Positions 2,645 to 35,113 of a stretch of DNA of 35,113 nt are shown one piece after another (the first letter of the stretch is position 1; each line of letters starts with the position of its first letter). A program made the position numbers and the translations under genes. A model generated the notes under the pieces. That model did no database searches and was not told the DNA's origin. It saw only the letters and a list, made by a program, of their open reading frames with translations. Source of the stretch: a virus; IMG/VR virus record IMGVR_UViG_3300020442_003467, positions 1 through 35,113 of that record. The stretch is one strand, 5' to 3'.

Positions 2645-3781
2645 ATGAAAATAGGAGTTACATTCGGTACAAGAGACCATTCGGAAACGGCACACAATAC
2701 TGGAATCTTACAGAATTCAGTTAACCTTGTCACGTGTTTAAATCATATACACGAAACGTGGTTGGTTCAAACTTGCTTTCCAATGGATAATAATAAAAAA
2801 TACGAATTCAACATTTATGATTACCCAGTTGTGGGAATAGATGAAATATTTAGGGACGAAAAGCTTTTTGGTTTTGATATGATGATTATTTTGGGTGGAG
2901 AGTTGGTAGATTCAGATCTGGAAAGTTTACAAAATGGAGGCGTAAAGGTCGTCTATTATAATTGTGGAGCAATGTATCAGCTCCATGTCATGGATGTTAT
3001 TTTTGGAAAAACAAAGGATGAAAAATATTGGAGAACCAGATACCAAAATTATGATGGAGTTTGGTGTATTCCCCAAAATTGGAAAAGAAATGAGTATTAT
3101 CAGAGGGTTTTATTTAGACAAGATGAAATACCAGACGTTCCATTTTTATACGATCCAACATTTATTGATAAAGGATTACATGCTTTAGATTCTAATTTTC
3201 AAAAAGCAGTGTACAAACCAAATAGAAGTGTAGGAAAACGACTTTCTATTATGGAATCTAATAGGGATTGGTTAAAAAATTATGTACAACCTTTGCTTAT
3301 CTCTGAATCAGTGTACCGTAAAAAACCAGAGTTAATAAGTCAAATATCAATAAACAATTTTGATGGGTTTAAAGATGTAAATTTAGATACACTTTTAGAA
3401 ACTATGGATGTATGGATGTCTAACAATACCATATCGTACGTAAATGGTTGGTTTCCAGTTTATGAATATTTAGAAACATACACAGATATTGTAGTTAGTC
3501 ATCAGAGAGATAACGAATTAAGTTATTATCCTTTAGATATTTTGTATTTAGAATATCCATTGGTGCACAATTACGGATTAATAAGGGACGCTGGTTATTA
3601 TTATGAAGATTGGAATTTTGATCAAGCAGAAGAAAAATTAGAAGAAGCTTTGCGCTTTCATGATACAAACTTAGATATATATAATCATAGAGCGAAAAAA
3701 GTTTTAGATCGATATTCACCGTTTAACGGAGACAATATCGATAAGTATAGTAAGTTAATAAAACAATACATAGGAGAATAA
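2645..3781 (+). CDS. DUF2827/GT-B-like putative glycosyltransferase
   Basis: 378 residues. It starts MKIGVTFGTRDHSET followed by GILQNSVNL, then a Rossmann-like stretch (FDMMIILGGELVDSDLESL, then VKVVYYNCGAMY). The second half contains VWMSNNTISYVNGWFPVYEY and an acidic region near SYYPLDILYLEYPLVHNYG, where GT-B enzymes bind the sugar nucleotide. The start and overall order resemble DUF2827 proteins, often found beside phage fibre genes and considered glycosyltransferase-like. AGGTGA precedes the ATG. Its place between fibre genes and a 2OG oxygenase suggests modification of a virion protein or host surface glycan. Family assignment is from memory; the substrate is unknown. Confidence 0.55.
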   Translation: MKIGVTFGTRDHSETAHNTGILQNSVNLVTCLNHIHETWLVQTCFPMDNNKKYEFNIYDYPVVGIDEIFRDEKLFGFDMMIILGGELVDSDLESLQNGGVKVVYYNCGAMYQLHVMDVIFGKTKDEKYWRTRYQNYDGVWCIPQNWKRNEYYQRVLFRQDEIPDVPFLYDPTFIDKGLHALDSNFQKAVYKPNRSVGKRLSIMESNRDWLKNYVQPLLISESVYRKKPELISQISINNFDGFKDVNLDTLLETMDVWMSNNTISYVNGWFPVYEYLETYTDIVVSHQRDNELSYYPLDILYLEYPLVHNYGLIRDAGYYYEDWNFDQAEEKLEEALRFHDTNLDIYNHRAKKVLDRYSPFNGDNIDKYSKLIKQYIGE

Positions 3782-4072: not shown

Positions 4073-5233
4073 ATGCCTGTTCCCTCCACTGGAGAAATTT
4101 CATTAGGCAAAATTGGAAAAGAACTCAGATCGACTGGTACTGGAGACGATTACGATAACGGACCCGATACGCAAAATGCAACAAGTCTAACGCAAGCCTC
4201 GACTGGTGCTATAGATGCACTAAACACGTCTAATTCATCGGCTAATAGACCTGATGGATCTACGCCTCATAATATGAGCGAATTTTATGCGTACGACCAT
4301 AATCTTGCAGGCTTAAGTCCTCCATCGGCTCTATCGTATATCTCATCAGCTACTAATACCATACAGTTTACGTTTGATGAACCTGCTGGTGCCACTAGAG
4401 TGTACTTTTTTCAAGGCCCTGATTCATCGATAACTGGTTGGAGTGAAGGAAGTCACGTAGTTATTAACGGTGCACAGTATGCCACAGTAAATGCTTCATC
4501 AACAACCTCAGTAACTGTAGGCGGTTCATCTTCTGATAGGTGGTATAATCCCTCTATTCCTAGTGAACAAATGATTGTATTGGGACCAAACGATTATTTG
4601 GATCTCAAGTATAAATCTTACGATGGTAGTACGTTTAGCGGGTTTAGTAATTCTATTAGAGGTTGGACCTTACCTGGATCAGCCACTAATCCTAATCAAT
4701 CAGCTGCTGAGACAGATGAAGTAGAAATAGAATGGGACGAACCAACTGGAGGAGCAAACTCGTATCAGATTTTCTTCGGTCCTAATGTGAATCCAACTGG
4801 AAATATGGTATCAGGAAGTCAAGAAATAGATTTAAGAACTGGTCTAACTGCAGGAGCAACTTATTATTTTAGAGTTAGAGCCGTTAATGGTGGAGGAAAT
4901 CTTGGAGCTTACTCTGCTAATTTCGACGTACAAACACTTCCTGCAACACCTACTGGATTAACTGGTACAGGATTTACCACATCTGTTGATTTAGATTGGA
5001 ATGATAACGCAATTGCACCAGATAATTACACAGTTCAGTATAAGCTATCAACTGCAATGAGTTACACTACATTTGCTACAGTAACTGCTTCAGAAGACCT
5101 TGTAACTGGCTTATCTTCTGGTTTAACTTATAATTTTAGAGTTAAGGCTAACAACGGAGCTGGATCATCAGGATATGCAACCACTACCGTATCTACCAGT
5201 GGTGGAGGTGGCGGAAAGCCAAAAGGACCTTGA
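4073..5233 (+). CDS. Fibronectin type III repeat virion protein
   Basis: 386 residues. The first ~75 residues (STGEISLGKIGKEL, then MSEFYAYDHN) are an N-terminal module seen in marine phage structural proteins. From about residue 80 come probably three FN3-like beta-sandwiches. The last two carry the diagnostic strands LTAGATYYFRVRAVN and LSSGLTYNFRVKANN. The C-terminus is a flexible Gly-rich tail (GGGGGKPKGP). FN3 domains in phages usually decorate tail or fibre proteins and may bind carbohydrate. RBS GGAGA. The stop overlaps the next ATG (TGATG). Likely a virion surface or fibre protein; exact position unknown. Confidence 0.8.
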   Translation: MPVPSTGEISLGKIGKELRSTGTGDDYDNGPDTQNATSLTQASTGAIDALNTSNSSANRPDGSTPHNMSEFYAYDHNLAGLSPPSALSYISSATNTIQFTFDEPAGATRVYFFQGPDSSITGWSEGSHVVINGAQYATVNASSTTSVTVGGSSSDRWYNPSIPSEQMIVLGPNDYLDLKYKSYDGSTFSGFSNSIRGWTLPGSATNPNQSAAETDEVEIEWDEPTGGANSYQIFFGPNVNPTGNMVSGSQEIDLRTGLTAGATYYFRVRAVNGGGNLGAYSANFDVQTLPATPTGLTGTGFTTSVDLDWNDNAIAPDNYTVQYKLSTAMSYTTFATVTASEDLVTGLSSGLTYNFRVKANNGAGSSGYATTTVSTSGGGGGKPKGP

Positions 5234-16396: not shown

Positions 16397-16895
16397 GAAA
16401 AATATCAAACTTAAAGATATTGTAAACGAAAATATTGGTGGTATGGTACCACTTAAACCATTAGGAAATATGTTTACTGAAGTAGATGGTCCTAAAAAAA
16501 TGGATACAACCAGTCTTCTTAAGATGGCTAAAGAATTAGTAGCAAAAGAAGAAGATGATAAGCTTATGACAAAAGAAGATTTAGTTGGTACAGTTAATAA
16601 TTTTTCATCTTATGGTCCTTCAATATACAAAAAGCATAATTTAGCAGAAGTTGGAGCTAAGTTTACTGAGATAGCAGCTGCAGCTCAAAAGCATGTAACT
16701 GAAGAAACAGCAGATTGGTTTGATAGAGTTACCGTTCAAAGAAATATGAATGACCTCAAAAAACAAGCTGGTCAATTTAATAAGATTGCTTCCGAAGCAC
16801 AAGCTCTTCAGGATAGAATGGCTGCTTTATACGAAGATATGGGAGGCATACTTAACAGATACTTCGATATTAACGAGTTGAACGAGGAAGACTAA
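16389..16895 (+). CDS. Prohead-region protein, unknown function
   Basis: 168 residues starting MAKKNIKLKDIVNENIGG, overlapping the protease gene by 8 bases with GGGGA upstream of the ATG. Mostly helical; the C-terminal third (DLKKQAGQFNKIASEAQAL, then MAALYEDMGGILNRYFDINEL) is likely coiled coil. The N-terminal basic helix followed by a Pro/Gly segment (MVPLKPLGNMF) looks like a cleavable leader of a prohead core protein. No known family recognised. Its stop overlaps the next ATG. Confidence 0.7.
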   Translation: MAKKNIKLKDIVNENIGGMVPLKPLGNMFTEVDGPKKMDTTSLLKMAKELVAKEEDDKLMTKEDLVGTVNNFSSYGPSIYKKHNLAEVGAKFTEIAAAAQKHVTEETADWFDRVTVQRNMNDLKKQAGQFNKIASEAQALQDRMAALYEDMGGILNRYFDINELNEED

Positions 16896-17941
16896 TGTTA
16901 CTCAAAGAATTTTATCAATCAATGTACGGTAAAATTATTGTTGAAAAGATAGACGACGATGCAGTTATTAAGTACAAAGATAACGATGGCGAACAAAAGG
17001 AAATGTCTGCTAAAGCTGCAAAACGAATGGCAGCAGATCATCCAGCCAAGATAGAGTACGATAAACAAGCAGATGGTGGAGATAAAGCTGCAAAGAAGTC
17101 AGTTAATATTTTTGATGAACCAGCAGATGAGCCTAAAGATCAACCAGCCGGTGATGATTTGGATAAACAAATAAAAGATACAGAATATTTATTTAATATG
17201 TATCGTACAAGTCCAGATCCTCAATATCAAGCTATGGCTCAAGGCGAATATGAAAAGCTACAAAAGTTAAAGGCCAAAAAAGGTGATAGTAAACCTGAAG
17301 CTTCCGGTGACGATGCCAAACAAATAGGTGGTCCAAACGGATTGGAAATAGATAGGGATGACATTGCAACAACATTGATGAATGATCCAGAAATTGCAGC
17401 TATATTGGGTGATGAAGATGACGTATATTGGGATGATGCTGATTTGGTTTCATCTAAGTGGGACGATACTACTATTGCATCTATAGATCCAAACTCACCA
17501 GAAACCATTGGAGATTTAAAGCAAAAGATTAGGGATTTTGAAGCCGAGCAAGGTGAAAAACAGGCTGCTCGTGATAATCAAGAATTTGAACCAGTTGAAA
17601 ACGATAAAGACATAAATAGAATGCAACAAGGAATGCAACAAGCAATTGGTGGAGATGATTACGAAGATGTACCAGATAGATTAGAATTACAGGGTAAAAT
17701 GAAAGCAGATAACGGTGAAACCATTATTGTATGGAAAGACACAGATGATGGAATGATGATGGGAGTTGATGCGGAAGGTAACGTATATGAAGACGGTGAA
17801 AAAGCACGTTACGGTATTGGAGTATCAACTGCTGGAAATGTATTCGGTGCAGATCAAAATAAGCAACGTAAAGCAGAAAACATTGTTCCAACTGGAACAT
17901 TTAGAAGAATTCAGGAAAATTATATAAAGAAAAATTTATAA
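16895..17941 (+). CDS. Acidic prohead-region protein, unknown function
   Basis: 348 residues, rich in Asp, Glu, Lys and Gln. The N-terminus (LLKEFYQSMYGKIIVEKI) resembles the short leaders of prohead core proteins. The middle is acidic and probably disordered (GDEDDVYWDDADLVSSKWDD). A small beta-rich segment follows near ETIIVWKDTDDGMMMGVDAEG. Composition and place between protease and scaffold suggest an internal head or accessory scaffold protein. No domain recognised. Confidence 0.7.
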   Translation: MLLKEFYQSMYGKIIVEKIDDDAVIKYKDNDGEQKEMSAKAAKRMAADHPAKIEYDKQADGGDKAAKKSVNIFDEPADEPKDQPAGDDLDKQIKDTEYLFNMYRTSPDPQYQAMAQGEYEKLQKLKAKKGDSKPEASGDDAKQIGGPNGLEIDRDDIATTLMNDPEIAAILGDEDDVYWDDADLVSSKWDDTTIASIDPNSPETIGDLKQKIRDFEAEQGEKQAARDNQEFEPVENDKDINRMQQGMQQAIGGDDYEDVPDRLELQGKMKADNGETIIVWKDTDDGMMMGVDAEGNVYEDGEKARYGIGVSTAGNVFGADQNKQRKAENIVPTGTFRRIQENYIKKNL

Positions 17942-17950
17942 GAGGTACAC

Positions 17951-18151
17951 ATGGCAATACAAGTTAAGGTTATAAACAACAAGTTTGAGCTAGCTCTCAG
18001 AAAATTCAAAAGAAAAGTAAAAGATTCTGGTATATTACACGAATTACAACAAAGACAGTTTTATGTAAAACCGTCAGCTGTTAAACGTGATAAGAATGCT
18101 AAAGCCAGATTGCGTGCACAGGTCCGTTCTCGTAAGGAACGCGAATCTTAA
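17951..18151 (+). CDS. rpsU: Phage-encoded ribosomal protein bS21
   Basis: 66 residues, SD AGAGGT. The core FELALRKFKRKVKDSGIL, then HELQQRQFYVKPSAVKRD and a Lys/Arg-rich tail, follows the bS21 pattern ALRRFKR...G.L.E.RRREFYEKP; cellular bS21 is about 70 residues. In the host, bS21 sits on the 30S platform near the anti-Shine-Dalgarno end of 16S rRNA and helps initiation. A phage copy may exchange into host ribosomes and favour phage mRNAs. Such genes are known in other marine phages. It is the last gene before the scaffold/capsid leader, so it is probably expressed late. Confidence 0.9.
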   Translation: MAIQVKVINNKFELALRKFKRKVKDSGILHELQQRQFYVKPSAVKRDKNAKARLRAQVRSRKERES

Positions 18152-18170
18152 AATATATCGCACTTTAATA

Positions 18171-18221
18171 TATTTTAATTATATTTATTTAAAATAATAA
18201 TGCACCTACATTCGTTAGGTG
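18171..18221 (+). promoter_or_regulatory. Gap before scaffold gene: AT-rich promoter-like motif and hairpin
   Basis: The 144-base gap 18152-18295 holds an AT-rich inverted repeat (TATTTTAA at 18171-18178, TTAAAATA at 18189-18196) overlapping a weaker copy of the TATTTAT motif (from 18182). A 6-bp GC-containing hairpin follows (CACCTA 18204-18209 loosely placed, pairing with TAGGTG ending 18221). There is no U-run after it, so a leader structure or weak terminator is equally possible. This precedes the two most highly needed structural genes. Confidence 0.4.
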
Positions 18222-29270: not shown

Positions 29271-32200
29271 ATGCCAGGTGGATTTGGATTTTTTAAAGAG
29301 TTTAAGTTTAACACAACTTATACGACTTCTAGATCAACAACGACTACGTTTCAGACTACCACTACGTTTCAAACTACCACTACGTTTAATACCAGTAAGT
29401 CTACTACTACGACTTATAATACAACTACTTCGACAACTACAACGTATACAACAAATAGGTCGACTACTACAACATTTAATACAAGTAAGTCTACTACGAC
29501 TACTTACACCACAACGTTTGCAACAAGCAGAACAACTGAAACTACAAGATCTACTAATACTACTACAACGTATACAACTACGTTTGAAACTACACGCTCA
29601 ACGTCTACTAGTAGAAGTACAAATACAGTAACCCAATACACTACTACTTTTGAAACCTCTAAAAGTACGTCTACTAGTAGATCTACAACCACTCAATATA
29701 CTACGTTTTTCCCAACGTCTAGGTTGACAACTATACAAACAGTTACTCAGTATACAACTACGTTTGCAACTACACAAACAACAACTACAACATTTCAAAC
29801 TAACACAATTACTCAGTATACAACAACATTTGAAACTAGTAGATCTACAGATACAACAATTAATACGACTACAACTTATACAACTACGTTTGAAACGAGT
29901 AGATCTACGAATACTAGTAGATCAACAAACACAACTACTACTTATACCACTACGTTTGCAACAAGTAGGGCAACCAACACTATCATACAAACAAATACTA
30001 CAACCACGTATACAACATATTTTCAAACATCTAGATCTACAGAAACAAGTAAAACAACGAATACTGTTACTCAATACACTACTACTTTTGCAACGAGTAG
30101 ATCTACAACTACGACTATACAGACAAATACTGTAACTCAATACACTACAACATTTGCTACTAGTAGATCAACAAATACAATAATTCAAACTAATACCGTA
30201 ACGACGTATACGACATTTTTTGAAACTAGTAGAAGCACAAATACAAGTAGAAATACAAATACAACTACTCAGTACACTACTACTTTTGCAACCAGTAGAT
30301 CTACAACTACAACTATACAGACAAACACAACTACTCAATATACAACTACGTTTGCAACAAGCAAAACAACTGCGACAACATTTCAAACTAATACAGTAAC
30401 GCAATATACTACTACGTTTGCAACGAGTAGAACAACTGAGACAACATTTCAAACTAATACAATTACACAGTATACAACAACGTTCGCAACTAGTAAATCG
30501 ACATCAACATCCAGATCAACTAATACAACTACGACGTATACGACATCATTTCAAACAAGTAAAAATACGTCTACTAGTAGATCTACAACCACTCAGTATA
30601 CTACGTTTTTTAATACTAGTAGCATTACAAATAGAACTACAACAACTGTTTTTGTTACTGGGTTCGAAACGTCAAGTATTACGAATAAGTCTACTACAAC
30701 TACGTTTAATACAAGTAGAACAACATCTAGTATTACAAACAGAACTACAACGACTTCGTTTGAAACTACTACAACATTTAATACGTCAAGCATTACAAAC
30801 AGGACTACTTCCACTACTACTGTTTTTACAACTACGTTTAATACGAGTAGTATAACAAATAGAACTACTAGCACCACTACAACATTTAATACGACCATTA
30901 ATACATCTAGAACTACTACGTTCCAGACAACATTTAATACAAGTAGGTCTACAAATACAACTACTACCTACACTACTACGTTTGCAACGAGTAGAAATAC
31001 AAATACGACTACAACATACACAACAACATTTGCAACAAGTAGAACTACTAATAGAACTACAACTACACAGTATACGACTACATTTGCAACGAGTAGAAAT
31101 ACAAATACGACTACTACTTATACTACTACGTTCGCAACAAGTAGAACCACAAATAAAACTACAACTACTACGTTTACCACAACATTTAATACGTCAAGTA
31201 TAACCAACAGAACTACGTCAACAACAACTACATTTAACACCAGTAGCATTACTAATCGAACTACTAATACTGTTTTTACAACTACGTTTAATACAAGTAG
31301 CATTACAAACAGAACTACAAATACGACTACAACTTTTCAAACAAGTAGTATTACAAATAAGACTACTTCTACAACGACTACATTTAATACAAGTAGTATT
31401 ACAAATAAAACTACGTTGACCACATTCACTACTACGTTTCAAACATCTAGTATTACAAACAGAACTACGTCTACAACTACTACATTTAACACTAGCAGTA
31501 TTACAAACAGAACCACTAACACAGTGTTTACTACTACTTTTCAAACATCAAGTATTACGAATAGAACTACTTCGACAACCACGACGTTTGGAACATCTAG
31601 TATAACCAACAGAACTACGTCAACAACTACTACGTTTAATACGAGTAGTATTACTAATAAGACTACTTCTACGACCACTACATTTCAAACTAGTAGTATT
31701 ACAAATAAAACTACTAACACGGTATTTACTACGACATTCCAAACTAGTAGCATTACAAGCAAATCTACGACAACTGTTTTTGTTACAGGGTTCGAAACTT
31801 CTAGTGTAACAAATAAGACTACTTCTACGACCACTACATTTCAAACATCTAGTATTACGAGTAAAACTACTAACACTGTTTTTACTACTACTTTCCAAAC
31901 TAGTAGCATTACGCATCTAACTACTAATACGGTGTTCACTACTACTTTCCAAACTAGTTCAGGTACGAGTCATACTACGTCTACGACCACTACATTTACT
32001 ACTACTATACAGACAAACACAACTACTACGTATACCACAGAGTTCAATACTAGTAGATCGACTAATACTACGACTCAGTATACAACATATTGGCAGACAA
32101 GTAGGAGCACAAACACAAATACCCAATACACCACGTATTTTACTACTAGTAGGTCTACAAATACTAATACGCAATATACAACATATTTTAATACAAGTAG

Positions 32201-33824
32201 ATCTACAAACACAAATACACAATACACAACGTATTTTCAGACAAGTAGAACGACGCATCTAACTACTAACACAGTGTTTACAACTACGTTTGGCACGAGT
32301 AGTATTACAAATAGATCTACGTCCAGAACTACTACGTATCAAACTAGTAGATTGACTAATCATGCTACAACCACAACATTTAATACTACGTATGAAACAA
32401 ATAAAACTACAACTACTCAGTATACATCTCAATGGATAACTTACTATAGTACGAGCAGTAGTACGAGCAGTATTACTAATAGAAATACAAATACGACTAC
32501 AATTTTTACTACTACTTATAATACGAGTAGGTCTACTACTACAAAGTTTAATACCAGTACATCTCGCAATACGACAGAGAGTAGAAGCACTGTTACGAAG
32601 TATACTACAACTACTACGTTTACAACTACGTATACCACTACGTATAATACTACATTTCAAACAAATAGACAAACGTATAGGTACACTTATTTTTTAACAA
32701 GTAGAGCTACGGACAAAACGACTACGTATAACACATCTAGAACAACGACATACGCAACGTACTATACGACGTCTTGGAATACAGGTGGCTGTTTATGGGA
32801 GGGTCATTTCTTACAAATGGCAAATGATTCTAATGTCGAACTTGTGAATGCAACAGAGTGGACAACGGCACAAAACGACGAAGATCATGACATAACATTA
32901 TGGAGTGGATCTGGAGATGATGCTTATCCAATATCTGCAAGTTTACAATACGTAAAAAGTATACGTTTACCTGGATTACCAACTGGCTCAAATTTTGCAG
33001 ATGATGTATTTGAAAATTATGAGAATTGGAGAGGCACACAAGAACAAATAGATTCGGCTTCTATGTCTCCAGCATTTATAAAGGGAGTATTTAAGTCTTC
33101 GTTTGATGTGTATTATTCGATGTTCTTGGAAAACGGTAAAGAAATAAAATTTAGTTGGGATCATCCTACATTTATTAAGCGAGATGGAGAATATAGATTC
33201 GTATTAGCACAAGATATAACAACATCAGATCAGGTAATGGACATAAACAAGAATTTGATTGATGTTACTTCAATGTCTTTTCAATCCGAATCCATAAATA
33301 TGGTAGAATTAAATGTTGAAGAAAAAGACGTTTACTTCGTAGAAGATATTTTATTTCATAATGCATTCAAGTGTTTCATGCCAGATCAGTTGATTTCAAT
33401 GGCAGATGGAGAGTTAAAAGAAATACAATATGTTGATGTTGGAGAAATGATACTTGCTTGGGATGAAAATAGCAATTCAGTAAAAGAAAGTGAAGTTTGC
33501 GAAATACAAACAAAGATGCACGATGATGTATATGAAATGACATTAGCAAACGGAAAGAAATTAAAACCAACTGGTAACCACCCATTCTTAATTTTTGGAA
33601 AGGGTTGGTGTACGATTGATAAGTATGAGCTAAACCATGGTGGTGGAACAGGGGTGATAAACGTTGGGGATGAAGTATACGATGTATCGAGTGGAGTTCC
33701 CGAGAGAGTAAAGGTCACGAAGCTCGAGCCAATAGAGGGAGCATTTACAACGTATAACTTTATAGATACAGAGTATAAGACTATCATTGCAGATGGTATA
33801 ATTACACACAATACAGGAAAATAG
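29271..33824 (+). CDS. Giant Thr-rich repeat protein ending in two tandem Hint (intein-like) domains
   Basis: 1517 residues, SD AGGAGAG. After a short start (MPGGFGFFKEFKF), residues ~14-1170 are Thr/Ser repeats with Tyr/Phe at regular intervals; about half of all residues are Thr. The first type is ~22 residues (QYTTTFATSRSTTTTIQTNT), the second ~16 (TTTFNTSSITNRTTST), later QYTTYFNTSRSTNTN. Residues 1174-1364 and 1368-1514 are two Hint domains (own entries), after which only TGK remains before TAG. Regular aromatic spacing suggests a beta-solenoid or extended fibre; dense Thr/Ser could be glycosylated. Repeats at protein level use mixed Thr codons. Next to fibre genes, so virion or surface-associated is likely; function unknown. 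Confidence 0.85.
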   Translation: MPGGFGFFKEFKFNTTYTTSRSTTTTFQTTTTFQTTTTFNTSKSTTTTYNTTTSTTTTYTTNRSTTTTFNTSKSTTTTYTTTFATSRTTETTRSTNTTTTYTTTFETTRSTSTSRSTNTVTQYTTTFETSKSTSTSRSTTTQYTTFFPTSRLTTIQTVTQYTTTFATTQTTTTTFQTNTITQYTTTFETSRSTDTTINTTTTYTTTFETSRSTNTSRSTNTTTTYTTTFATSRATNTIIQTNTTTTYTTYFQTSRSTETSKTTNTVTQYTTTFATSRSTTTTIQTNTVTQYTTTFATSRSTNTIIQTNTVTTYTTFFETSRSTNTSRNTNTTTQYTTTFATSRSTTTTIQTNTTTQYTTTFATSKTTATTFQTNTVTQYTTTFATSRTTETTFQTNTITQYTTTFATSKSTSTSRSTNTTTTYTTSFQTSKNTSTSRSTTTQYTTFFNTSSITNRTTTTVFVTGFETSSITNKSTTTTFNTSRTTSSITNRTTTTSFETTTTFNTSSITNRTTSTTTVFTTTFNTSSITNRTTSTTTTFNTTINTSRTTTFQTTFNTSRSTNTTTTYTTTFATSRNTNTTTTYTTTFATSRTTNRTTTTQYTTTFATSRNTNTTTTYTTTFATSRTTNKTTTTTFTTTFNTSSITNRTTSTTTTFNTSSITNRTTNTVFTTTFNTSSITNRTTNTTTTFQTSSITNKTTSTTTTFNTSSITNKTTLTTFTTTFQTSSITNRTTSTTTTFNTSSITNRTTNTVFTTTFQTSSITNRTTSTTTTFGTSSITNRTTSTTTTFNTSSITNKTTSTTTTFQTSSITNKTTNTVFTTTFQTSSITSKSTTTVFVTGFETSSVTNKTTSTTTTFQTSSITSKTTNTVFTTTFQTSSITHLTTNTVFTTTFQTSSGTSHTTSTTTTFTTTIQTNTTTTYTTEFNTSRSTNTTTQYTTYWQTSRSTNTNTQYTTYFTTSRSTNTNTQYTTYFNTSRSTNTNTQYTTYFQTSRTTHLTTNTVFTTTFGTSSITNRSTSRTTTYQTSRLTNHATTTTFNTTYETNKTTTTQYTSQWITYYSTSSSTSSITNRNTNTTTIFTTTYNTSRSTTTKFNTSTSRNTTESRSTVTKYTTTTTFTTTYTTTYNTTFQTNRQTYRYTYFLTSRATDKTTTYNTSRTTTYATYYTTSWNTGGCLWEGHFLQMANDSNVELVNATEWTTAQNDEDHDITLWSGSGDDAYPISASLQYVKSIRLPGLPTGSNFADDVFENYENWRGTQEQIDSASMSPAFIKGVFKSSFDVYYSMFLENGKEIKFSWDHPTFIKRDGEYRFVLAQDITTSDQVMDINKNLIDVTSMSFQSESINMVELNVEEKDVYFVEDILFHNAFKCFMPDQLISMADGELKEIQYVDVGEMILAWDENSNSVKESEVCEIQTKMHDDVYEMTLANGKKLKPTGNHPFLIFGKGWCTIDKYELNHGGGTGVINVGDEVYDVSSGVPERVKVTKLEPIEGAFTTYNFIDTEYKTIIADGIITHNTGK
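29310..32780 (+). repeat. Thr-rich coding repeat array
   Basis: In-frame repeats of 48-66 bases built from ACN codons, with ACTAGTAG and TTT/TAT as recurring landmarks. About 29700-30600 holds the 22-residue type, about 30610-31970 the SSITNRT type and about 32040-32260 the QYTTYF type. Copies vary by synonymous codons, so long exact repeats are rare. Antisense frames read as Val/Leu- or Cys/Ser-rich and are not genes. Confidence 0.9.
32790..33362 (+). other. Hint domain 1 (intein/BIL-like) in the Thr-rich protein
   Basis: Encodes residues 1174-1364 (191 residues). It opens with Cys1174 in GGCLWEGHFLQMANDS (block A pattern C-L-x2-G-x-x-L-x-M-A). A block B-like FSWDHPTFIK carries the conserved His. 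It closes with VYFVEDILFHN (blocks F and G). The residue after the terminal Asn is Ala1365, not Ser/Thr/Cys, so normal splicing is not expected; this matches A-type bacterial intein-like domains, which mostly cleave. No endonuclease domain is visible. Confidence 0.72.
33372..33812 (+). other. Hint domain 2 (mini-intein-like) in the Thr-rich protein
   Basis: Encodes residues 1368-1514 (147 residues), three residues (AFK) after domain 1. Cys1368 begins CFMPDQLISMADGELKEI (block A). LKPTGNHPFLIFGKGW is block B with conserved Thr and His. It ends YKTIIADGIITHN, blocks F/G with the His-Asn pair, and the following residue is Thr1515, a valid +1 nucleophile. Size fits a mini-intein without endonuclease. 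All splicing residues appear present, but only Thr-Gly-Lys follow before the stop. Confidence 0.85.
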
Positions 33825-33825
33825 T

Positions 33826-35113
33826 GTGCCAGTAACTAGTAGACAAACGAGCAGAAATACATCAAGAACGACTACGTATAACACGTCTAGAACTACGGTT
33901 TTCAATACCTCGTGGAATACATCTAGGATTACCGTGTATACAACATATTGGAACACTACTAGGAGTACGAGTAGAACTACATCTAAGTCGACTAATAGAA
34001 GTACAGCTGTACAGCATAACACTACGACTGAGTATACGACTAGTACTACGTTTGCAACTGAAACTTTAAAGTCTACTACTACAACGTATACAACAAATAA
34101 GTCGACAACTAGAAGTACAAATACGACTACTACCTATACAACTACCTATACAACTACTTGGCAAACTTACAGACCGACAAGTACCATAACGAATAAGAGT
34201 ACGACTACTGTATATAATACAAGCAAAAGTACCAATCATAGTACGACCACTGAATACACTACGTATTTTCAAACTAGCAAAACTACAACATTCGTAACAC
34301 AATACACAACAACATTTGCAACTAGTAGAAGTACCAATCATAATACGATCACTGAGTATACAACATATTTTCAAACTAGCAGCATTACGAATAAATCTAC
34401 GAATACAACTACTTCGTGGCAAACTTCTAGCATTACGAACAAATCTACGAATACAACTACTTCGTGGCAAACTTCTAGCATTACGAATAAATCTACGAAT
34501 ACAACTACATCATGGCAGACCAGTAGTATAACAAACAAAACTACGTCTACGACTACTTCGTGGCAAACTTCTAGTATTACGAATAAAACTACGACAACTG
34601 AAACAACTTATAGCACTAATCGAAGTACTAACACGACTACTGAGTACACTACGTATTTTGAAACCAGTAGAACAACAAATAAAAATACTGTAACACAATA
34701 CACTACGTATTTTCAGACTAGCAGAAGTACAAATAGAAATACAACGACTGAGTATACGACATATTTTCAAACTAGTAGAAGTACAAATACTGTAACGCAA
34801 TACACTACGTATTTTCCAACAAGTAGAACCACTAATAGAGCTACAACGACCGAGTATACGACATATTTTCAAACTAGTAGAAGTACAAATAGAAATACAA
34901 CTACTCAATACACCACATATTTTCAGACAAGTAGATCTACCAATACTGTAACTCAGTATACAACTACGTTTGCAACTAGCAGAACTACTAATACAACGAC
35001 TCAGTATACAACTTCATTTGCAACTAGTAGATCTACTAACACTACGACCACGTATACGACATATTTTCAAACTAGTAGGACTACAAATAGAAATACGACT
35101 ACTCAGTACACTA
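33826..35113 (+). CDS. Thr-rich repeat protein (3' partial), possibly continuing the preceding gene
   Basis: 429 codons open to the window end with no stop. A GTG start at 33826 has AGGA (33815-33818) seven bases upstream and lies one base after the TAG of the preceding gene, so restart is plausible. The start (VPVTSRQTSRNTSRTTTYNT) resembles the segment just before Hint domain 1 (TTTYNTSRTTTYATYYTTSW). The body has ~18-residue units (TEYTTYFQTSRSTNRNTT) and 16-residue units (SITNKSTNTTTSWQTS). Its frame is +1 relative to the upstream gene; one base less in the AAAA at 33818-33821 would join the two as one protein. Function as for the upstream repeat protein: unknown, probably an appendage. 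Confidence 0.75.
   Translation, partial: MPVTSRQTSRNTSRTTTYNTSRTTVFNTSWNTSRITVYTTYWNTTRSTSRTTSKSTNRSTAVQHNTTTEYTTSTTFATETLKSTTTTYTTNKSTTRSTNTTTTYTTTYTTTWQTYRPTSTITNKSTTTVYNTSKSTNHSTTTEYTTYFQTSKTTTFVTQYTTTFATSRSTNHNTITEYTTYFQTSSITNKSTNTTTSWQTSSITNKSTNTTTSWQTSSITNKSTNTTTSWQTSSITNKTTSTTTSWQTSSITNKTTTTETTYSTNRSTNTTTEYTTYFETSRTTNKNTVTQYTTYFQTSRSTNRNTTTEYTTYFQTSRSTNTVTQYTTYFPTSRTTNRATTTEYTTYFQTSRSTNRNTTTQYTTYFQTSRSTNTVTQYTTTFATSRTTNTTTQYTTSFATSRSTNTTTTYTTYFQTSRTTNRNTTTQYT
34381..34572 (+). repeat. Four tandem 48-base units
   Basis: Units start at 34381, 34429, 34477 and 34525 and each encodes SITNKSTNTTTSWQTS or a close variant. The first two differ by a single base and the third departs only near its end, while the fourth differs at many synonymous sites. 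This indicates a recent duplication inside an otherwise codon-scrambled array. Confidence 0.9.

Follow-up and report, generated by a model that had tools for sequence, protein, structure and literature searches.

Inteins are usually regarded as parasites of conserved enzymes. Why should two intein-like Hint domains stand one behind the other at the end of a giant, threonine-rich, fibre-like protein of a marine phage? The question is raised by the sequence analysed here, a whole IMG/VR record of 35,113 bases (the window), which is itself probably a genome fragment. Family matches to terminase, portal, head protease and major capsid protein indicate a T4-like phage origin, and the nearest relatives of the capsid protein are found in the uncultured phage LR756508 (484-kb), Microcystis phage Mel-JY01 and Flavobacterium phage immuto. 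An earlier note on this DNA had described a cleaving and a splicing Hint domain that might release, ligate or cross-link the Thr-rich chain, and as a whole that interpretation is partly supported by the present analysis. Beyond it, sequence comparison points to a different descent of the two domains, to the same layout in a second phage, and to single Hints as common features of fibre and tail proteins in related phages.

Architecture of the threonine-rich protein

Re-translation reproduced exactly the open reading frame, the residue numbers and the coordinates that had been reported for the two Hint units (Table 1). The protein encoded by gene A starts with MPGGFGFF and is Thr-rich up to residue 1173, with no Cys at all between residues 13 and 1171; the two Hint domains follow, separated by AFK, and the chain ends in TGK and the stop codon. 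The host protein is as unusual as had been noted, a Thr-rich fibre with no conserved enzyme site. Its Thr-rich part keeps a two-residue register (29307-32789), which is also seen at 33826-35113 and in genes A and B of the second phage described below. One parity is occupied by Thr, Phe, Tyr, Arg and Lys, the other by Thr, Ser, Asn and Gln, and the register never slips over more than 1000 residues, a regularity that suggests one long beta-strand pattern.

Table 1. Features of the gene A and gene B region; each Hint row runs from the first base of its Cys codon to the last base of its Asn codon (L042, second phage)
Feature	Position	Strand	Basis
Gene A, Thr-rich fibre-like protein, 1517 aa, C-terminal end formed by two Hint domains	29271..33824	+	ORF translation
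Thr-rich chain, residues 1-1173, N-extein of Hint1, C-end ..SWNTGG	29271..32789	+	translation
Hint1, fibre-type, BIL-like, Cys1174-Asn1364, +1 Ala	32790..33362	+	profile matches, model, tree
Hint1 block B motif SWDHP (Ser1295, His1298)	33153..33167	+	alignment
Ala-Phe-Lys linker joining Hint1 to Hint2 (L042: Gly-Pro-Phe)	33363..33371	+	translation
Hint2, class 1 mini-intein-like, Cys1368-Asn1514, without endonuclease	33372..33812	+	profile matches, model, tree
Hint2 block B motif Thr-Gly-Asn-His	33570..33581	+	alignment
Hint2 C-extein Thr-Gly-Lys (L042: Ser-Gly-Gly-Lys)	33813..33821	+	translation
Gene B, second Thr-rich gene, GTG start, extends past window end	33826..35113	+	ORF

The two domains are recognised with different ease. 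Hint2 matches the NCBIfam model intein_Nterm TIGR01445 at 29.5 bits (curated cut-off 24.5) and the Pfam families Intein_splicing (2.3e-7) and Hint (3.3e-6). By sequence Hint1 is weaker, with 1.1e-3 against Pfam Intein_splicing and, limited to its C-terminal half, 3e-7 against PHROG 38766, a virion structural protein family. A Hint match within residues 1174-1364, on which the earlier note had staked its reading, was thereby found. Block A of Hint1 is degenerate, its block B has Ser in place of Thr, and before modelling its first 23 residues could be placed in two ways in the alignment. MAFFT put block A as a deletion, which would make Hint1 an N-terminally truncated Hint; this was ruled out by an AlphaFold2 model of both domains together, built from a 10-row alignment (pLDDT 71 on average, below 50 in loop 21-52 and about 90 in the Hint1 core). 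Residues 1-191 of the model, corresponding to Hint1, superpose on the Tetrahymena BIL2 structure 6y75_B with a Z of 17.3 (1.6 A, 135 residues), and Cys1174 falls on residue 1 of that chain. Hint2 modelled alone reached a pLDDT of 90.3 and matched the same chain with a Z of 22.6 (1.5 A, 142 residues); both values come from input alignments that contained related Hints and from a predictor that had seen inteins. Since each model matches inteins and BIL domains of solved structure along its whole length, with the Cys on the intein Cys1, Hint1 and Hint2 are each a complete Hint domain, from Cys1 to the C-terminal Asn.

The residues at the putative active sites agree with the assignments made before. 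Hint1 has Cys1 and a C-terminal His-Asn and no +1 nucleophile (Ala here, Gly in the relative), which is the set of type A BIL domains, and Hint2 has the full class 1 splicing set of Cys1368, T-G-N-H, His-Asn1514 and Thr1515. No endonuclease family was matched by Hint1 (191 aa) or Hint2 (147 aa), as had been claimed, and neither falls among the homing endonuclease-bearing inteins. In place of the conserved host site of a class 1 intein, Hint2 is flanked by a variable 3-residue linker and a tail of 3-4 residues.

The pair had been placed "inside or at the end" of the fibre. It ends its ORF, but the Thr-rich sequence then resumes in a second gene, whose start lies one base past the gene A stop in a different frame. 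The second phage contains a complete relative of this gene B (L041, 1277 aa) that starts with ATG after the same 1-base spacing, and because the spacing is shared, gene B is read as a separate gene coupled to gene A. A Shine-Dalgarno-like AGGA (33815-33818) lies within the codons of the TGK tail, and the TGK or SGGK codons likely provide the ribosome site of gene B.

Other genes of the fibre region also caught our attention. A repetitive Ser/Thr/Ala-rich frame (SATQSSQSAGQSSTSASTSTSSATASGN..) enters at the window's left edge (1-1390), ahead of a fibre gene that ends in S74, and a DUF2827 gene (2645-3781, Pfam 1.3e-68) lies amid the fibre genes. In relatives, glycosyltransferase-like genes, recognised by eye, adjoin the Hint proteins. 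The DUF2827 gene product might modify the Thr-rich chains.

Recurrence and descent of the pair

A search of viral contigs with the start-peptide pattern revealed a sister contig, IMGVR_UViG_3300020472_003494 (L041/L042), with the same tandem layout, so that the double arrangement does occur in a related phage protein, as the earlier note had suggested looking for. The order in L042 is MPGGFGFF, Thr-rich chain, Hint1 (223 aa), GPF, Hint2 (147 aa), SGGK, stop, one base, and the ATG of gene B. The tandem form is represented by these two sequences only. Two further sequences (L010/L038) have the start of gene A in common, and there the contig ends inside the Thr-rich part. A single-protein search of viral contigs and an alignment search of genome contigs returned zero relatives, likely because the patterns were drawn from fast-changing parts.

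Between the two phages Hint2 is 66% identical, and with a dN of 0.26 against a dS of 1.76 it is evidently under purifying selection; for Hint1 the identity is 35%, the dN 0.58 and the dS 1.13. The catalytic residues common to both phages are Cys1, the block B His and His-Asn in Hint1, and Cys1, TxxH, His-Asn and a Ser/Thr at +1 in Hint2. The class 1 set of Hint2 is identical in L042 but for Ser at +1, the codon being ACA in the window and TCA in L042, with a hydroxyl residue in both. Given the degenerate block A, the Ser for Thr in block B and the faster evolution, the chemistry of the window Hint1 may be weakened.

In a tree of 24 Hint domains, whose long branches make the placements inside each side unsure, Hint1 clusters with the Hint1 of L042 and the fibre Hint of LR756508 (support 96/95), within a clade of fibre-type phage Hints. 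Hint2 falls on the side that holds the inteins of terminases, portals and helicases. Fibre-type and intein-type domains are separated by a split of moderate support (85/78), which occurs once in all bootstrap trees. Judged by this tree, the tandem combines two lineages, and a tandem duplication as the origin of the pair is ruled out. L054 and gene 204 of Salicola phage SCTP-2 were considered as additional tandems and rejected, their Hints being ordinary inteins in a terminase-like and a RecA-like protein, respectively; the RecA-like protein of SCTP-2 has two (L158:4981-6951). In LR756508 the portal carries several inteins and the head protease a single one (L051:5761-9921, 16475-18202).

Hint domains on other phage virion proteins

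A Hint is present in 20 of the 34 contigs that have the upstream fibre gene. In most of them it is encoded close to the tail sheath gene (e.g. L004, L029), within a protein some 440 aa long that is composed of an N-terminal domain, the Hint and an Fn3-like end, the Fn3 label being read from the sequence and from the names of structural matches. A scan found 211 viral contig stretches that encode a relative of this family, and such proteins (L055-L069, L076-L155) belong to many uncultured marine phages; beyond the Hint part, no match to the family was found in a cultured phage. All 67 distinct Fn3-type ORFs checked have Leu at -1, Cys1, TxxH and Lys at +1. From +1 onwards they read KGG, KGS or KEQ in 65 of the 67, and KGG in the two that the motif had overlooked.

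Cys1 and His-Asn are likewise invariant across the 15 fibre-type rows of the alignment. A C-terminal Hint with 2-10 residues behind it is found on virion proteins, collagen-like or of another kind, of Erwinia jumbo phages, NCTB and LR756508, and other fibre-type Hints end in HNK, HNKK, HNKH or HNKVD. Cultured phages with a C-terminal Hint include those with the Erwinia Alexandravirus gp105 family and Dickeya phage AD1. One tail-region protein of the window (4073-5233) has an Fn3-like end where its homologue in a close relative (L071:9149-10300) has a C-terminal Hint, and from this difference Hints seem to be exchanged between virion proteins. In another phage, a protein of 791 aa (L070:5957-8329, minus strand) has two clear C-terminal Hints and a degenerate third ahead of them by Pfam, with linkers AP and RLPPT, an HNK end and an N-terminal part that is ATP-grasp-like by eye.

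Searches of the open-access literature found no mention of Hints in tandem or of a Hint as the end module of a fibre. The use of Hints on phage fibre and tail proteins is widespread and apparently unreported, and the tandem is real and conserved in two phages. Two Hint lineages are stacked on one virion fibre, and single relatives with near-invariant catalytic residues occur on tail or adhesin proteins of many uncultured marine phages. If these domains are active, Hint chemistry would be used in building the phage particle, and they would be a source of new cleaving or ligating domains.

A candidate self-processing tail, its alternatives and known systems

From the separate domains, their fold, their recurrence and their descent, we infer an activity, an order of events and a purpose: the Hint pair would process the C-terminus of its own fibre, which we consider probable though far from assured. 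Type A BIL domains, with His-Asn and no +1 nucleophile, form an N-terminal thioester and cleave by Asn cyclisation, and they can also ligate, through attack of the freed amine on the thioester (PMC4031507). Having Cys1 and His-Asn without a +1 nucleophile, Hint1 fits this chemistry. The last 344 residues would then form a two-part self-processing tail, in which Cys1174 attacks the carbonyl of Gly1173 to give a thioester and Asn1364 cyclises, cutting the chain behind itself. Hint2 would leave by cleavage or by splicing, the latter joining AFK to TGK, a product of merely a 3-residue linker and a 3-residue tail. After its exit, Hint1 would open the Gly1173-Cys1174 bond and release the Thr-rich chain 1-1173 with a defined C-terminus. 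In favour of this course are the fit of both folds to solved Hint domains, the catalytic residues kept in both phages and the short-tailed C-terminal Hints that recur on collagen-like tail proteins. The Fn3-type Hints speak against a trimming role, for they lie mid-protein, where a cut would split the adhesin and not trim its end.

The same thioester could have another fate. Passed from Gly1173 to an amine, that of a lysine side chain or of a newly made N-terminus, it would join the fibre end covalently to a virion protein or to a fibre chain. Tetrahymena BIL2, the top structural match of both Hint1 and Hint2, is reported to form an isopeptide bond with lysine (PMC8616854), and the Lys at +1 of every Fn3-type ORF and in the HNK-type ends would suit such a reaction. 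However, BIL2 is just one among many Hint domains of similar Z, the tandem proteins have Ala or Gly at +1, their linker has no conserved lysine and the acceptor protein is hypothetical. Cross-linking of the fibre to other virion proteins, as raised in the earlier note, is possible, and we regard this particular route to it as unlikely though credible. It is tempting to speculate further that fibre-type Hints are widespread ATP-free ligases of tailed phages, which would transfer a thioester at the fibre or adhesin end to an amine (the +1 Lys in the Fn3 type) and so create branched, isopeptide-linked virion fibres, the splicing-type Hint of the tandem timing or protecting the step; in so broad a form the idea is unlikely.

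The position of Hint2 in the tree, among terminase, portal and helicase inteins, could also mean that only Hint1 is a working fibre module and that Hint2 is just a mini-intein, selfish or a relic, that has settled in the tail behind it. The terminase intein of Acinetobacter phage ME3 (L156) aligns with Hint2 on through HN-TGK, where it is part of a P-loop extein, and inteins are also present in the portal and head protease of a related phage, LR756508. The TGK tail may be a captured extein remnant, or it may just encode the ribosome site of gene B. Hint2 is, however, the better conserved of the two domains, which is not what one expects of a passenger in a tail of three residues; it has no endonuclease, and the contig searches found no intein-free homologue of its host protein. 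We consider this origin distinctly unlikely. Both domains might instead be chemically dead and act as a folded cap or assembly aid, like the S74 chaperone domains that end neighbouring fibre genes (by eye also in L004, L011, L022 and L029). The degenerate block A of Hint1 and its Ser for Thr would agree with this, but Cys1, the block B His and His-Asn have been kept despite low identity in both domains and in the fibre clade, and loss of all activity is very improbable. We give hardly any credence to a frameshift at the gene A stop that would fuse A to B and let an internal Hint pair splice two Thr-rich chains together, for although the Thr-rich frame resumes one base past the stop in the same relative frame in both phages, gene B starts from a codon of its own (GTG; in L041 ATG) behind a Shine-Dalgarno-like site, the M-P at its beginning is conserved, and ordinary coupled genes suffice as an explanation.

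The self-processing fibre tail that we favour can be set beside four known systems. BIL2 of the Tetrahymena BUBL1 polyubiquitin locus is structurally closest to both domains, but it is eukaryotic and has ubiquitin-like flanks, where the tandem has a Thr-rich chain and a second Hint, and nothing conserved in the tandem proteins corresponds to its lysine acceptor. With type A BIL domains Hint1 shares the Hint fold, Cys1, the C-terminal His-Asn, the lack of a +1 nucleophile and a variable host protein; it differs in being carried by a phage fibre, three residues ahead of a Hint of another lineage. Hint2 resembles the class 1 mini-inteins of phage terminases and DnaB in its Cys1, TxxH, His-Asn, Ser/Thr at +1 and absent endonuclease, whereas it lies outside a conserved enzyme site and has a C-extein of 3-4 residues and another Hint as its N-extein. 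Finally, Hint1 is of the kind found at the C-terminus of collagen-like tail proteins (PHROG 38766; Erwinia Alexandravirus gp105, phage NCTB 136), matching the Hint part of PHROG 38766 and sharing the short tail after His-Asn. Those proteins carry a single Hint each, on a collagen-like and not a Thr-rich stalk, and in NCTB a separate Hint gene comes next.
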